Virus record (IMG/VR): IMGVR_UViG_3300032782_000024
Coordinates: 1-28,793 of that record
Direction: 5' to 3' (one strand)
From: a virus
Length of the DNA stretch: 28,793 nt
Each line of letters begins with the position of its first letter. Within the stretch, counting starts at the first letter, position 1. A program made the position numbers and the translations under genes. Shown piece after piece: positions 5,615-26,104 of this stretch. Under the pieces are notes generated by a model that searched no databases, had not been told where the DNA came from, and was given only the letters and a program-made list of their open reading frames with translations.

Positions 5615-7948
5615 ATGCCCAGTGCAATAGTCACACTGCCGGACGGTAAACGAGCCAAGGTCACTTTTGACACGCCCGATCAGCTGGATCAGACCGTCAA
5701 TGACCTGGTAGGCCAGCATCCATCAACCGAGCAGCGGATCGAGGCGACAGACCCCATCCGTCGCGCCCACAATCGCATTACCGAGGCGATCGGTGAGCCG
5801 GCCGTGCAGATGGCGACGGGAGCGGCGGGGGCGATTGCAGGGGGCTGGCGGGGCGCGTTTGACCTCTTGACCGGACAGGGCGCTGAGAAAGCAGCCCAGG
5901 ACGTGCGCTCGACCGAGGAAGCACTCACCTACCAGCCGCGCACGAAGACTGGACAGGCATCCAGTCGTATCGTCGGCAAGCCCTTTGAGCTGCTGGCCAA
6001 GGGTGCTGATGTCGCAGGCGGCAAGGTGGCCGAAGCGACCGGCTCACCGGCTCTGGGGGCTGCGGTGAATACGGCGATCCAGGCAGCCCCGGCCGTCCTG
6101 ATCCCCGGGGCTCGAGGCCTGACGCGGCTCGCCCGCTCCATGCGAAGACCTCCGACAGGTCCCATCGCCCCGGAAGGGATGACCGCCGAAGGCGCCCCCC
6201 GGACAGCCCCGGCTGCCGTAGGGGAGGCGCCCACGCCCCCCCAGGCCGCTACGCCCCCACCGGGCATGCAGGCCAGCGGGCCCCCGCGACAACCGCCCTC
6301 GACGGTGGGCGAGGTTCCACGTGGAACGCAAGCGCCTGCCGCCGAACCCCCCGTCGGACCTCACCAGGAGCGCGCCCAAGCGTATGCACGCCGCATTGGT
6401 CTTGATTGGGCTCGTCTGGGTGCTGGGACACGCAAGGCACTGGAGACGATCGCCCAGGACGCCACAGCCCTTGATCGTCTCAACCCGGAAGCCGTCAAGC
6501 GCCAGGCACACCTGGAATCCCTCCGAGTGCCCGTCCGAGCCACTCGGGGACAGCTGGAGCGCGACCCCGTACAGCTACGCCGAGAGGCGCTCGCGTCGAA
6601 TACGAGCGAAGGTCAGCCCATCCGGGATGTGGACATTGCAGCAAACCGAGACCTTCAAGCGAACCTGGAAGTTCTGCGCGGGCGGGTCGGCGGGCGACGC
6701 GGGACCGCCGAGGAGCCGATCACCGAGGGCGGAGAGGTAAACCCCGCTTCCATCCGGGGAGCTACGAAAACCCCCACTCAGGTCGGGGAAGCCGCGCAGC
6801 AAGCCGCGCGCGAGAAAGCAAAGTGGTCGAAGAAGGGCTACCAGGCGCTCTACAAGATCGCCCGCGAGACCGAGCCCGAAGTTCAGGTGCCGCTCACTCC
6901 TGTGACCGACCTCCTGACGAGCAACCCGGAGATTCAACACCTGGGCTGGGTGCAGTCCTGGTTGAGTAAGGCCGCTCGCGTAAAGGCCCCCGAGGGCGGG
7001 GAGCCGGTTGCGATGACCGATGCGAAGTTGGCCGAGCTTCACGACCTGCGCTCAACCGCCAATGACATTGCCCGCACCGGAGGCAAGGAAGGCTACTACG
7101 CAGGGCAGGTGGTCAAGGCGATTGATCAGGCCATGGAGGCAGCCCCGGAAGGGGCGGCTGCCTGGAAGCGTGCGAACGAGGCCTTCAGGAAGCACCAGCA
7201 GGAGTTCAAGGACCAGGGGGTTGTGGGCAAGCTCGTCAGCCAGAAAAAGGGCGGGGCAGATCGGTCGCTTGCGCTGGAGAAGACCTGGAAGACGGTCGCG
7301 ACCGGGCCCGTCGAGCAGATCCGCCAGGTCAAGAAGACCTTGTTGACTGGGGGCACCCCTGAGCTACGCGCACGAGGCCGCGCTGCTTGGCGCGACATCC
7401 GAGCCGAGACCGTGAACCGGATTCTGGAGGATGCGCGCAACGTGACCACAGCCGATGAGACCGAGCGGGCGGTGCTCACCGAGGCTGCCTTGCGCAAGTC
7501 GATCAATCGCATTCCACGCGAGAACCTGGAGGAGATCCTCGGCAAGGCGAACGTGCGCGAGCTGTATAACATCCTGCGCGCTCGTCGCATCACCACGCGC
7601 TCACCGGTGGGCGGGCGCACGACGCAATCCGGAACCGTGCCCAATGCACTGGTGCTGTTCGAGAAGGTGTTGAAACACCTGCCCGGGGGGAAGTATGTGG
7701 TCGGGGCCAAGAACGCCGTGCAGGAGCTTGGCGAGCGGGGAGCCGCGGCGCGCGCCGCCCAAGAAGCGGGTGTATCGCCCCTGGAGCAAGCCGCTCGCGA
7801 TGTGCAGAAAACACGCCCGAACTACGCAGCCGAACGACGGCGCGCTCAGTACGAGTCTCTGGAACAAAGTGGTCCAACACTACCGCAGAGTCCGTCACCC
7901 CAACCGCTACCGATCGGGGAAGCCCTGAAACGGCAGCCGCGCCCGTGA
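5615..7948 (+). CDS. Large ejection/internal virion protein (gp16 position)
   Basis: A 777-residue protein. I chose the ATG at 5615, four bases after the previous stop, over an open frame starting at 5375, because the extra N-terminus would be entirely inside the preceding gene. It begins MPSAIVTLPDGKRAKVTFDT. Small-residue hydrophobic segments (about residues 62-82 and 148-168) could insert in membrane. A Pro-rich linker (about 180-250) leads to a long helical, charged C-terminal body rich in Arg and Glu. Size, position and architecture suit the last ejection protein, which in P22 (gp16) moves DNA across the inner membrane. No catalytic motif such as a transglycosylase was recognised. Confidence 0.7.
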   Translation: MPSAIVTLPDGKRAKVTFDTPDQLDQTVNDLVGQHPSTEQRIEATDPIRRAHNRITEAIGEPAVQMATGAAGAIAGGWRGAFDLLTGQGAEKAAQDVRSTEEALTYQPRTKTGQASSRIVGKPFELLAKGADVAGGKVAEATGSPALGAAVNTAIQAAPAVLIPGARGLTRLARSMRRPPTGPIAPEGMTAEGAPRTAPAAVGEAPTPPQAATPPPGMQASGPPRQPPSTVGEVPRGTQAPAAEPPVGPHQERAQAYARRIGLDWARLGAGTRKALETIAQDATALDRLNPEAVKRQAHLESLRVPVRATRGQLERDPVQLRREALASNTSEGQPIRDVDIAANRDLQANLEVLRGRVGGRRGTAEEPITEGGEVNPASIRGATKTPTQVGEAAQQAAREKAKWSKKGYQALYKIARETEPEVQVPLTPVTDLLTSNPEIQHLGWVQSWLSKAARVKAPEGGEPVAMTDAKLAELHDLRSTANDIARTGGKEGYYAGQVVKAIDQAMEAAPEGAAAWKRANEAFRKHQQEFKDQGVVGKLVSQKKGGADRSLALEKTWKTVATGPVEQIRQVKKTLLTGGTPELRARGRAAWRDIRAETVNRILEDARNVTTADETERAVLTEAALRKSINRIPRENLEEILGKANVRELYNILRARRITTRSPVGGRTTQSGTVPNALVLFEKVLKHLPGGKYVVGAKNAVQELGERGAAARAAQEAGVSPLEQAARDVQKTRPNYAAERRRAQYESLEQSGPTLPQSPSPQPLPIGEALKRQPRP

Positions 7949-9267
7949 AACTGCTCATCGTGAATATGGACTCGGTCGGTGAGGGCCTGGCGTTTGCGCT
8001 GAAGTGCGCAAAGTTCGGCCACGATGTCCGTATTTGGTTCCACCGCGGCAATAACCCTGATGTGGGCGAGGGGTTCACCGAGATCACGCGCGTTGATCAA
8101 TGGCTGCCTTCTGCCCGTTGGGCGGATCTGATCGTGCCGACCGGCAATCACCTGTTTCTGCCTAAGTTCGATCAGCTGCGACGCGCTGGAATTAAGGTGT
8201 TCGGTCCGTCTGAGACCTCTGCGCGGCTTGAGATCAAACGCGCATTCGGCATGGAGTTTTTCAAAACCCATGGGATCGAGGTTCCCGAGTGGCAGCAGTT
8301 CAAAACCCTGGACCAGGCCGAGGCTCACGTGCGCAAGACGGAAGCGCGCTACGTGTTCAAGACCTTAGGGGATGAGGAAGACAAGAGCCTGTCGTATGTC
8401 GGGAAATCACCGGCTGACTTGATCGCTCGCATCCAGCGTTGGAAGAAGTTGGGGATGAACCCCAAGGGTCCTGTGATGCTCCAATCGGTGATCGAGGGGG
8501 TGGAGATCGGTGTCTCGCGGTGGATGGGCACGAAGGGCTTTGTCGGTCCCTACAACGAGAACTTCGAGCACAAGAAGCTCCTGTCGGGCAACTGCGGGCC
8601 CAACTGCGGAGAGGCCGGGACGGTACAGAAGTACGTCTCAACGAGCCCCCTGGGCGAGCAGGTGTTGGCGCCGCTCGAGGAGGCGCTCGTCAAGATGGGG
8701 CACCTGGGGGATATCGATGTCAACTGTATTGTCGATGAGTCCGGCAAGCCCTGGCCGTTGGAGTTCACCTGTCGCTTGGGCTGGCCTGCCTTCAATATCC
8801 AACTCGCCACGCATGCGGGGGATCCCGCCCAGTGGATGCTGGACGCGTGCAACGGCAAGGACACCTTGAAGACGGTCAACAAGGTGGCCTGCGGGGTCGT
8901 GCTCGCGCAGCCCGATTACCCCTACTCGCAGAAAACACGTGAGGAAGTCACCGACATCCCGATCTATGGCGTCACGCGCGCCAACCGTGAGTTCCTCTAT
9001 CCGCAGGCGGTCAAGCGCGAAAAGCTCCCCGACATGGAAGGTGAGAAGGTGACCGAGCGGGTGATCTGGGCCACGGCAGGGGATTACCTCATGGTCGTGA
9101 CCGGCACCGGTAAGACCGTGCGCCAGGCCTGCACGCGCGCGTATGACACGGTGTCCGAGCTTCAAGTCTCAGACCTGATCTACCGCGATGACATCGGGGA
9201 GAAGCTCGAGGAGGAGATCCCCAAGCTCCAGCTGCACGGACTCGCCACCGAGTTCCACTACGAATAA
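7945..9267 (+). CDS. ATP-grasp ligase, PurD (GAR synthetase)-like
   Basis: The 440-residue product aligns by motif with phosphoribosylamine-glycine ligase. Seen are FGPSETSARLEIKRA (86-100, cf. FGP..AA.LE.SK), HGIEVPEWQQF (109-119), a cis-lysine strand ARYVFKT (134-140), GPNCGEAGTV (218-227, cf. GPNTGGMG), DIDVNCIV (256-263) and LEFTCRLGWP (272-281, cf. LEFN.RFGDPE). The usual PurD N-terminal GGREHA loop is replaced by MDSVGEGLAF, and the Asp-Pro-Glu after the last motif is missing, so the acceptor is probably not the normal one. GTG start overlaps the previous stop. A ligase between ejection and fibre genes is unexpected; its substrate is unknown. Confidence 0.8.
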   Translation: MKLLIVNMDSVGEGLAFALKCAKFGHDVRIWFHRGNNPDVGEGFTEITRVDQWLPSARWADLIVPTGNHLFLPKFDQLRRAGIKVFGPSETSARLEIKRAFGMEFFKTHGIEVPEWQQFKTLDQAEAHVRKTEARYVFKTLGDEEDKSLSYVGKSPADLIARIQRWKKLGMNPKGPVMLQSVIEGVEIGVSRWMGTKGFVGPYNENFEHKKLLSGNCGPNCGEAGTVQKYVSTSPLGEQVLAPLEEALVKMGHLGDIDVNCIVDESGKPWPLEFTCRLGWPAFNIQLATHAGDPAQWMLDACNGKDTLKTVNKVACGVVLAQPDYPYSQKTREEVTDIPIYGVTRANREFLYPQAVKREKLPDMEGEKVTERVIWATAGDYLMVVTGTGKTVRQACTRAYDTVSELQVSDLIYRDDIGEKLEEEIPKLQLHGLATEFHYE

Positions 9268-13099: not shown

Positions 13100-13541
13100 T
13101 CCGGTCACACTCGCTTTGAGCCTTGCTGTCCAGTTCGAGGGTATCTACCTCTCACCCTACCTGGACCCGACCGGTATCCCGACGATCGGCATCGGCTGCA
13201 CCCGGTACCCAAACGGGGTCGCGGTCACGCTCGCCGACCCACCCCTCACCCGGGAGCAGGCCATCGAGCTTGCTCGGTGGCAGCTGCGGCGCCAGGGGCT
13301 CGCCGGCGTCATGAGCCTGTGTCCCAAGGTGCCCGATGCGAGCAAGCTCGCAGCCCTCACCGACTTCGCATTCAACCTGGGAGTGGGCCGACTGCGCTCG
13401 AGCACGTTGCGCAAGCGCGTGAACGCCAACCAGTGGTCACAGGTGCCCGCCGAGCTTTTGAAGTGGAACCGGGCAGGCGGACGAGTCCTGCCCGGTCTTA
13501 CGCGTCGGCGGATCGCCGAGGGCGCCCTTACTCGCCTCTGA
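13089..13541 (+). CDS. Endolysin, GH24 (T4/P22-type) lysozyme
   Basis: The 150-residue product has the GH24 catalytic triad in T4-lysozyme spacing: E17 (VQFEG), D26 (PYLDPTG) and T32 (PTIGIG). The later segments ALTDFAFNLGVGRLRSSTL and AGGRVLPGLTRRRIAE are typical of phage muramidases of this fold. It would cleave the peptidoglycan glycan strand. There is no signal peptide, so export depends on the upstream holin. GTG start inside the holin gene. Its last 14 bases overlap the convergent J-domain gene. Confidence 0.92.
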   Translation: MESDPVTLALSLAVQFEGIYLSPYLDPTGIPTIGIGCTRYPNGVAVTLADPPLTREQAIELARWQLRRQGLAGVMSLCPKVPDASKLAALTDFAFNLGVGRLRSSTLRKRVNANQWSQVPAELLKWNRAGGRVLPGLTRRRIAEGALTRL

Positions 13542-14157
13542 GTAAGCTTTTGAAGGGCCCCTCCGGGACGTGCCCGGTGAGGACCTGGACGAGGGATACG
13601 GTGCTCAGGGGCGCATAGTGGTAGTCATCCAGGATCGCCTGCGCTCGTCGTAGCACGCGCTCGTCCGCGTCGAATATCGGCAAGCACGCTTCTCCCTTAG
13701 CTACTTCTGCAAGGATAGCGCCTTGCAGGAAGTTATCAGGCGGACCGCGCAGGCGAGCGGCGCGGGCCCGCAGGATCGAGAGATCTGTCAGGCACTGCGC
13801 GCGCTGTCGATTCAAATGTTGTAACTGCTCCTCCAGGTTCAAGCACAGAAAATCGAGGATATTGGCACCCGGATCAGCTGTGCGCAGCAGTGTTGCAAAC
13901 ACCCGCAAGATCACCGTGCGAGCTGTCTCGTCAATAGACGGTTGACGGTTGATGCCTAAGCCTGCATCAAACCGCTTGCGTTGCTCAGGATCCAAGAGGA
14001 TGTCCCGCGCCCGGTTGACCGCTGCGGCTTGCGTGTGATCCCCGCCGTGGGTGTCGGTGTGACACTCACTGATCTTGCGACGCCATGCCTGGCGGATCTG
14101 CTCATCCGTCGCGGTGCTCTCAATCCCGAGTACTGAGTAGGGGTTGAAGTCACTCAT
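13528..14157 (-). CDS. J-domain (DnaJ-like) protein with altered HPD motif
   Basis: The N-terminal 70 residues form a recognisable J domain: NPYSVLGIESTATDEQIRQA, then KISECHTDTHGGD, then VNRARDILLDPEQRKRFDAG. The HPD tripeptide needed to stimulate DnaK ATPase reads H33-T34-D35. The remaining 140 residues are helical and unrecognised. Phage J proteins can recruit host DnaK for replication or assembly, as known for other phages; the missing Pro makes normal stimulation doubtful. It is the last gene of the leftward operon, with its 3' end overlapping the endolysin gene tail to tail. The ATG start has only a weak ribosome-binding site. Confidence 0.82.
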   Translation of the reverse strand: MSDFNPYSVLGIESTATDEQIRQAWRRKISECHTDTHGGDHTQAAAVNRARDILLDPEQRKRFDAGLGINRQPSIDETARTVILRVFATLLRTADPGANILDFLCLNLEEQLQHLNRQRAQCLTDLSILRARAARLRGPPDNFLQGAILAEVAKGEACLPIFDADERVLRRAQAILDDYHYAPLSTVSLVQVLTGHVPEGPFKSLLRGE

Positions 14158-24180: not shown

Positions 24181-24404
24181 GTAAGACCACGTATCACGTG
24201 TACATCAGTCCGGTGCATGCCGTGCAGGTGAGCGCTGATGATCTGGAAGTGGTGCAGAACGTGCTGCAGTTCAAACGCGACGGCAAGGTGTGCGGTCAGT
24301 TCTCGCAGTACCTGGGTTGGCTCGAGATGCTCGAGGAGAAGAAAGAGCCGGGCACCCTGCTCTCGATCGTCCCCTCAACACCGCCCACGGGAGAAGCAGT
24401 ATGA
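24177..24404 (+). CDS. Small hypothetical protein
   Basis: The 75-residue product begins MSKTTYHVYISPVHAVQVSA, with a beta-type N-terminus and FKRDGKVCGQFSQYLGWLEM in the middle. GTG start overlapping the previous stop and an ATGA junction with gmhA. Function unknown. Confidence 0.6.
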   Translation: MSKTTYHVYISPVHAVQVSADDLEVVQNVLQFKRDGKVCGQFSQYLGWLEMLEEKKEPGTLLSIVPSTPPTGEAV

Positions 24405-24973
24405 GCGGCGAAGGAGTCTGTGAACACAAGCTGCCGCGCAAGTTCTGCACGGCGCTGCACTGTGAGTGCGACGGACCGAAGCTTCAGGCCGGCCCCAAGC
24501 ACCGGCTCAACTGTCCGCTCTATCGCCCCGGGGACAGCGCCGCGGCGATCTGCGTCGAGGCGTTAAAGAGCGGGCACAAGATCCTGATCTGCGGCAACGG
24601 CGGATCGGCTGCCGAGGCTTCCCATTTTGCCGCCGAACTTGTGGTGCGCTACGCCCGCAATCGGCGCGCTCTACCGTGCATCTCGCTGACCGCGGACCAG
24701 GCCGTCATTACAGCCTGCGCCAATGACTTCGGGTTCGAGAACGTGTTCGCCCGGCAGGTCGAGGCGTTCGGGGCCCCGGGCGATGTGCTTATTGCGCTCT
24801 CAACCTCAGGCAAGAGTCGCAACGTGAATCTGGCGATTGCGAGCGCGCACAAGCTGCATATGCGGGTGCTGGAGCCGGAGCGGCCGGAGCTGCAGACCAC
24901 CGGCGAACGGCAGGAGACACACCTGCACTGGCTGCACGGGCTTGCCGAGCGGATCGAGGAAGCGTTCCTGTGA
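24401..24973 (+). CDS. GmhA-like SIS protein (sedoheptulose-7-P isomerase type)
   Basis: The 190-residue protein has the SIS core of phosphoheptose isomerase: ILICGNGGSAAEASHFAAEL (61-80), LTADQAVITACANDFGFENV, VFARQ and GDVLIALSTSGKSRNV. All four GmhA metal ligands are present: H75, E79, Q171 and H179 (cf. H61, E65, Q172, H180 in E. coli). Two oddities stand out: a Cys-rich N-terminus (C7, C16, C21, C23, C38) replaces the usual first helices, and about 15 residues are missing before the final helix (MRVLEPERPELQTTGERQET). GmhA starts ADP-heptose synthesis; here it may feed a sugar-modification step or be altered in activity. It is not part of a heptose operon in this window. Confidence 0.82.
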   Translation: MSGEGVCEHKLPRKFCTALHCECDGPKLQAGPKHRLNCPLYRPGDSAAAICVEALKSGHKILICGNGGSAAEASHFAAELVVRYARNRRALPCISLTADQAVITACANDFGFENVFARQVEAFGAPGDVLIALSTSGKSRNVNLAIASAHKLHMRVLEPERPELQTTGERQETHLHWLHGLAERIEEAFL

Positions 24974-25368
24974 ACCTTCCACCGCAAGCCTGAGCTGGGG
25001 TACGCTCCGTCCATACCACAAGCGCAAGTAGGGGGCCGATGACGGTGATGACAGGTCTGACCACGGCGTGAGAGACCCGAAGGTGTAAGGCCCCCAACTG
25101 CTGGTGCAAGGGGGACCGCGCGAGGAACGCCACGCGGGACGACTGAAGTCCTGCGCAAGGCCGCGACCCGTCAGCAGGAGGCTGTACATGGGGTAGTGCC
25201 GCAAGGATCGTCCGTTGTAGACCAGCCGACTCTCACGAAAAACTCCCGGCACGTACTCAGATCGTGGATGTAGGGAACGAGCAGAAACCGGCATTCACCC
25301 GAGGCCCCCGAAACTGACCTCGAGCGGCGACAGGCCTCAGAAAGCACCCCCCCTGGAGGGGGGCACGC
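24974..25368 (+). ncRNA. Candidate large structured RNA
   Basis: About 395 bases with no convincing reading frame on either strand and repeated long-range complementarity. Clear pairings are CGTGAGAG (25067-25074) with CTCTCACG (25230-25237), eight bases; GGGGGCC (25031-25037) with GGCCCCC (25089-25095); TGACGG (25040-25045) with CCGTCA (25168-25173); GGCTG (25180-25184) with CAGCC (25223-25227); and GAGGCC (25301-25306) with GGCCTC (25333-25338). Local stems include CCGCG/CGCGG (25116-25120/25133-25137). The CCCCC at 25091-25095 can also pair with GGGGG at 25110-25114. A HEARO/omega-type RNA is one possibility, but no IscB or IsrB gene is present and the class is unverified. Confidence 0.5.
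25347..25363 (+). promoter_or_regulatory. C/G hairpin over the ribosome site of the next gene
   Basis: CCCCCCC (25347-25353), a TGGA loop and GGGGGG (25358-25363) form a very stable 6-bp stem six bases before the ATG at 25369, covering the only Shine-Dalgarno-like sequence (GGAGGGGGG). It could terminate the RNA or shut off translation of the gene behind it. Confidence 0.6.
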
Positions 25369-25605
25369 ATGACCAAAGACGAAATGCAGCGGCTGCATGG
25401 CCAGGGCGAGACGCACGACTGCTGCCCGGCAGCCTGGCGCGATGTGCCCAACCTGGTCGGTGATTACGACCTGGATGCGACCATCCTGCATCGACAGAAT
25501 CCAAACCTACCCAGGCGCCTGGCGCTCTACGTGAAGCGCGGGGAGCGTGCCTATGGCCCCTCTTCCGGCTACCGCGGTTATCGCAACTACGGTGGTGATT
25601 CCTGA
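25369..25605 (+). CDS. Small hypothetical protein after the RNA region
   Basis: The 78-residue product begins MTKDEMQRLHGQGETHDCCP and ends in a Gly/Tyr/Arg-rich tail (YGPSSGYRGYRNYGGDS). Charged, no domain recognised. It directly follows the candidate RNA, with its ribosome site inside the C/G hairpin. Confidence 0.6.
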   Translation: MTKDEMQRLHGQGETHDCCPAAWRDVPNLVGDYDLDATILHRQNPNLPRRLALYVKRGERAYGPSSGYRGYRNYGGDS

Positions 25606-25726: not shown

Positions 25727-25808
25727 ATCGGCGATTGAGCAGGGTTACTACTCGACAGACCATGAGGGCTCGTACGCAGCACCGCCTCAGGGGGGCCCGC
25801 AATCATGA
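25713..25808 (+). CDS. 31-aa mini-protein (possible)
   Basis: ATG 25713 with GGGGGAG upstream; MATSESAIEQGYYSTDHEGS. It overlaps the acidic gene and its stop overlaps the next ATG. It fits the coupling pattern of the operon but is very short. Confidence 0.4.
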   Translation: MATSESAIEQGYYSTDHEGSYAAPPQGGPQS

Positions 25809-26104
25809 TCAAACCCACTATCGGCCGTGTTGTGTGGTTCTGGCCCGATCCGTCCATGCCGACACTTAGCGGCATCGAATCGGCAGCGCAGCCTTTCACA
25901 GCCTCGATCTGTTACGTGCACGACGATGACACCATTAGCGTCGGCGGCTTTCGGCATGACGGGCGGACCTTCGTCGCGACAATGATCCCGCTGTATCACG
26001 GTGAAGGGCCTCGGCCGCTGGTGCCTCACGCCGAATGGATGCCGTATCAGAAGGGCCAGGCAGCCAAGACGGAAGCGCTGGAAAAGAAGCTGGAGGGCGG
26101 GTGA
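25805..26104 (+). CDS. Conserved phage hypothetical protein
   Basis: The 99-residue protein begins MIKPTIGRVVWFWPDPSMPT and contains FTASICYVHDDDTISVGGF, then HAEWMPYQKGQAAKTEALEK. The GRVVWF...AxxCYV...EWMPYQKGQA arrangement is familiar from proteobacterial phages just upstream of the terminase; the function is unknown. The ATG overlaps the previous frame and the stop overlaps the next gene (TGATG). Confidence 0.72.
   Translation: MIKPTIGRVVWFWPDPSMPTLSGIESAAQPFTASICYVHDDDTISVGGFRHDGRTFVATMIPLYHGEGPRPLVPHAEWMPYQKGQAAKTEALEKKLEGG

Follow-up and report, generated by a model that had tools for sequence, protein, structure and literature searches.

A candidate structured RNA of patchy occurrence near the terminase genes of phages without cultured close relatives

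What lies in a 395-base gap between two genes of a phage genome when no convincing reading frame can be found in it? The window, by which we mean the whole stretch of DNA that was analyzed (28,793 nucleotides, IMGVR_UViG_3300032782_000024), contains such a gap at positions 24974–25368, from the stop of a gmhA-like gene to the ATG of a small gene encoding 78 amino acids. A first-pass annotation, made from the letters alone, had placed the gap between these two genes and described it as noncoding, and both points were borne out when we checked the positions and frames. The upstream gene (24401–24973, + strand) encodes a gmhA-like SIS-domain sugar isomerase. The downstream gene (25369–25605, + strand) is conserved in 54 viral loci, where the family lies upstream of terminase genes; its 78-aa product had no match in Pfam or PHROG, and no match to it was found in INPHARED phages. 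From the homology described below, the candidate RNA was assigned to 25000–25368 on the + strand and would read the same way as the neighbouring terminase genes; in the window the probable small terminase gene follows ~0.9 kb downstream of it. Its 3′ end is defined by a terminal hairpin and its 5′ boundary is approximate; three-way homology begins just past the upstream stop in both relatives, and the RNA probably starts near 25000 rather than at 24974.

Other genes of the window were also annotated. A 99-aa protein encoded at 25805–26104 (+) matched phrog_2293, whose function is unknown, and 155 stretches of IMG/VR are related to it. Encoded among the structural genes at 7945–9264 (+) is a PurD-like (phosphoribosylglycinamide synthetase) protein of 440 aa, with relatives in 76 viral loci, and the opposite strand encodes, at 13528–14157 (−), a protein of 209 aa whose N-terminal part is a DnaJ domain.

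Folding of the single sequence did not distinguish the gap from chance. The 395-nt stretch reached a minimum free energy of −146 kcal/mol versus a mean of −154.3 (sd 6.6) for dinucleotide shuffles (z = +1.25), and 88 of 100 shuffles folded as well or better, contrary to the first-pass claim of more pairing than expected; the minus strand gave a z of −0.22. The exact 8-base pair on which that claim had leaned is indeed present (CGTGAGAG at 25067–25074 and CTCTCACG at 25230–25237), and the GNAA-type loops it had listed are found between the two strands. However, an exact inverted 8-mer pair with a spacing of at least 100 nt arises in 49% of dinucleotide shuffles, and the pair alone is too little to establish structure. 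Single-sequence features were thus insufficient to argue for a structured RNA, although the core taken by itself (25066–25237) folded mildly better than chance (z = −1.56; 13/200). Judged by sequence comparison, what goes beyond chance is the conservation of the long-range pairing in two relatives, not its mere presence. Folding one sequence would have dismissed what appears to be a real RNA, and the 8-base pair alone would have misled us into belief.

The first of these relatives, IMGVR_UViG_3300032782_000018 (hereafter L082), came from the 54 viral loci with relatives of the 78-aa protein and has a matching RNA immediately ahead of its copy of the 78-aa gene. The second, IMGVR_UViG_3300047333_000060 (hereafter L170), was found by pattern scans of IMG/VR, which returned two true members and many chance matches (L136, L138–L140, L147–L169 and L171–L196); TTGTAGA formed part of one search pattern, and L170 was first found without it. 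The structural genes and PurD-like gene of the L170 phage are collinear with those of the window, and its RNA adjoins other genes: the 78-aa gene was not found in the ~400–500 nt left downstream or elsewhere in this probably partial record. The gene upstream of the RNA is a different one in each of the three members. Core indels have lengths that are not divisible by three, and no frame stays open across the members.

The elements and their order are common to all three members: a 5′ box, the 5′ strand of P1, the P3 hairpin, the P5 strands, TTGTAGA, the 3′ strand of P1 and a terminal GC hairpin, all of them on the + strand. The 5′ conserved element of the window, CCATACCACAAG (25011–25022), aligns with CCATTCCACACC in L082 and ACATTACCCAAG in L170, and the box of the members reads CCATACCACA, CCATTCCACA and ACATTACCCA. 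We considered this element as a phage promoter, which was not evident, the motif having no repeat in the window; additionally, the region upstream of the RNA gave no sigma-70 promoter match. The closing helix P1 joins CGUGAGAG (25067–25074) to CUCUCACG (25230–25237) and pairs in 3/3 members, with two-sided changes. It reads GGUGAGG/CCUCAUC in L170 and is extended in L082 by two insertions, GAUCAG and CUGAUC, one on each strand, that pair with each other. The P3 hairpin (GCCCCCAACUGCUGGUGCAAGGGGGAC, 25090–25116), with a stem at 25091–25095/25110–25114 and an inner stem at 25099–25101/25106–25108, is the most conserved element, and its motif CCCC(C)..ACTGCYGGTGCAA..GGGG is invariant in the three members.

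P5 (25167–25192) pairs CCCGU (25167–25171) with AUGGG (25188–25192) in the window, CCCGUC with GACGGG in L082 and CGCGUC with GACGUG in L170. The core fold of the window also includes a peripheral stem-loop, CGCGGGAC..GUCCUGCG (25133–25157), in place of which L082 has another stem-loop and L170 has none. A tetraloop hairpin, CC-GCAA-GG (25199–25206), becomes CC-GUAA-GG in L082, the sole change falling at the free position of the GNRA loop, and is absent from L170. Near P1, the UUGUAGA box (25215–25221) is identical in 3/3 members. The 3′-terminal hairpin CCCCCC-UGGA-GGGGGG (25348–25363) has no U tract on the + strand, and both relatives have a GC hairpin at the corresponding place; its similarity to L143 and L144 was judged to be that of a convergent GC hairpin.

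To evaluate the fold comparatively, we tested the helices alone and in alignment. The duplex energy of P1 gave null p values of 0.0145 (window), 0.004 (L082) and 0.0195 (L170), and P5 tested alone was weak. The core alignment of the three sequences was made by hand and fitted by eye to the helices, a procedure that favours structure. With this hand-made alignment, the + strand consensus energy was −28.7, compared with a column-shuffle mean of −15.2 (sd 3.4; z = −4.0; 0/500), and the SCI p value was 0.004; the − strand was weaker, with p values of 0.018 for consensus energy and 0.024 for SCI. Two-sided changes were seen in P1 (A-U to G-C), P3 (C-G to U-A) and P5 (one C-G to G-U), and several G-U changes, with G-U pairs in P1 and P5, fit the + strand only. 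An unguided alignment of the window and L082 alone recovered P1, P3 and P5 too. The conserved pairing in L082 and L170 thus lends support to the large structured phage RNA suggested by the first-pass annotation, and the covariation it had asked about appears as pairs kept through two-sided changes on the + strand, as far as three sequences in a hand-made alignment can tell. Taken alone, the proposition that the gap contains a conserved structured RNA is very probable.

The distribution of this candidate RNA is narrow. When 99 complete records from related phages were screened with R1, a covariance model built on the P3 block, strong matches outside the window were confined to two of them, the records of L082 and L170 (E = 3e-16 and 2e-15). 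Similarly, a profile of all three members, run over 2.8 Mb of loci, found these three only. A blastn search of INPHARED phages and PLSDB plasmids gave nothing beyond one chance-level match (E = 1), and one pattern scan across ~85,000 genomes of bacteria and archaea brought up only L198, a chance match that is apparently coding. TerL showed <30% identity to named phages among the matches listed, and the phage lineage, on the evidence of its sequence, is one without a cultured close relative. The PurD-like proteins of L201 and L202 are 80% and 72% identical to that of the window, compared with 64% for the L170 record, and L201 and L202 lack the RNA. In L118, L115, L002 and L124 the two genes that meet at this junction, the upstream gene and the 78-aa gene, overlap by 4 nt, and nearly all other phages with the 78-aa gene are devoid of the RNA. 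Because nearer relatives lack it and the junction is elsewhere a 4-nt overlap, the RNA appears to be an optional insert in a variable cargo site. Homology, conserved pairing on the + strand and patchy presence are what the sequences show.

Adjoining this site, one related locus (L132:1638–4953) carries an apparent full ADP-heptose pathway consisting of gmhA, an HldE kinase domain, an HldE adenylyltransferase domain and gmhB, each of which matches NCBIfam models below the equivalog cut-offs. Parts of the pathway occur in other relatives (L088, L129, L131, L133 and L134), and the window retains gmhA only. A limited literature search found no paper on such a pathway in phages. The gmhA-like gene is not constant among the members with the RNA; a link of the RNA to heptose synthesis was rejected, as L082 and L170 carry the RNA without an adjoining gmhA.

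Known RNA families offered no counterpart. A search of the three members with 4227 Rfam models gave no match that passed the gathering score, and at permissive thresholds (E up to 10) the matches were at chance level. Nor did Rfam support a group I intron, which we had also considered, and the likeness of GCCGGTGCAA to the cobalamin riboswitch was judged a chance word, since its order and context differ and Rfam gave no match. The nearest in kind are GOLLD and ROOL, large phage or prophage RNAs without known function (PMC12286853), which the candidate resembles in being noncoding, structured and phage-borne and in having no known function. However, neither Rfam model matches it, many GOLLD members are longer (>800 nt; PMC12286853), and tRNA islands are frequent neighbours of GOLLD and ROOL (PMC12286853), whereas no tRNAs were found in the window or in the related loci scanned.

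The chief rival to a separate RNA gene is a cis-regulatory leader of the 78-aa gene, riboswitch-like, in which the P1-closed domain would act as sensor and the terminal GC hairpin as switch. In the window this arrangement looks apt, as the hairpin covers the Shine-Dalgarno sequence GGAGG of the next gene (25355–25359), with 9 nt between it and the ATG at 25369. The L082 RNA likewise ends just ahead of the 78-aa gene, placing two of the three members directly upstream of it, but the likely Shine-Dalgarno sequence of L082 falls outside the hairpin. Moreover, the RNA in the probably partial L170 record is not upstream of the 78-aa gene, the RNA is missing from nearly all other phages that have this gene, and no riboswitch family matched. 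We therefore regard a cis-acting leader as unlikely, while treating it as the main alternative.

The proximity to the terminase genes raises a different alternative, a DNA element with inverted repeats that mimic an RNA, for example a site of packaging or recombination or a replication origin. This seems improbable: P1 and P5 contain G-U pairs, the loop change retains GNRA, the + strand signal exceeds that of the − strand, and most relatives with the same terminase lack the element, which therefore is not an essential packaging site. The packaging RNA (pRNA) of phi29 is an RNA encoded in the phage genome. The candidate resembles it in being phage-encoded and in lying near terminase genes, but it has no Rfam match and, because most same-terminase relatives do without it, would not be a required part of packaging.

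We give still less credence to decaying or spacer DNA that pairs by chance from its high G+C content. The single-sequence fold, no better than shuffles, is what such DNA would give. Nevertheless, long blocks of the window and L082 are near-identical (for example 20/21 bases of GGGGTAGTGCCGYAAGGATCG, which is absent from L170), whereas conserved proteins of the two phages differ at ~1 in 5 residues. Pairing also survives changes, and the stretch stands as an insertion where relatives show a 4-nt overlap.

HEARO RNAs are located in the 5′ UTR of HEARO/IscB nuclease genes (PMC9755519), and the 78-aa neighbour of the candidate has no family match. The TnpB/Cas12f zinc domain (PF07282) was absent from the three, possibly incomplete, records in a search whose control was positive (11 genomes); a search of the same records for the IscB RRXRR domain found no match, but its positive control gave none either. 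A guide RNA of the omega/HEARO type, serving in trans a nuclease whose gene lies elsewhere, is the class that the first-pass annotation had ventured. It shares with the candidate only its overall size (343 nt for a HEARO; PMC12286853), GNAA loops and a multi-branch shape of several stems, and is very improbable: RF02033 was not among the matches to the window or L170 up to E = 10, nor among those to L082 up to E = 5.

Collectively, we favour, with some reservation, an accessory, phage-borne structured noncoding RNA that acts in trans as a separate molecule and is gained and lost as cargo. In this model, an RNA of ~300–370 nt would be closed by P1, hold the P3 hairpin and UUGUAGA box inside, and finish in the GC hairpin. 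We infer a separate transcript, which may act in trans as its own molecule with a binding partner, for example a host or phage protein or RNA bound during infection. Phages would acquire and lose the RNA as a small cargo module in the neighbourhood of the terminase genes. More tentatively, it may represent an undescribed class of phage RNA gene, an accessory cargo that is passed around in an uncultivated phage group and acts in trans against or on a host function, such as a defence or translation factor.

If this is true, phages of an uncultivated group carry an optional RNA gene, so far in three related phages. Few phage RNA genes are known as optional cargo, and most of these have no known job. 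Its role would be testable by presence and absence, since the core is defined, three variants occur in nature, and there are close relatives both with and without the RNA.
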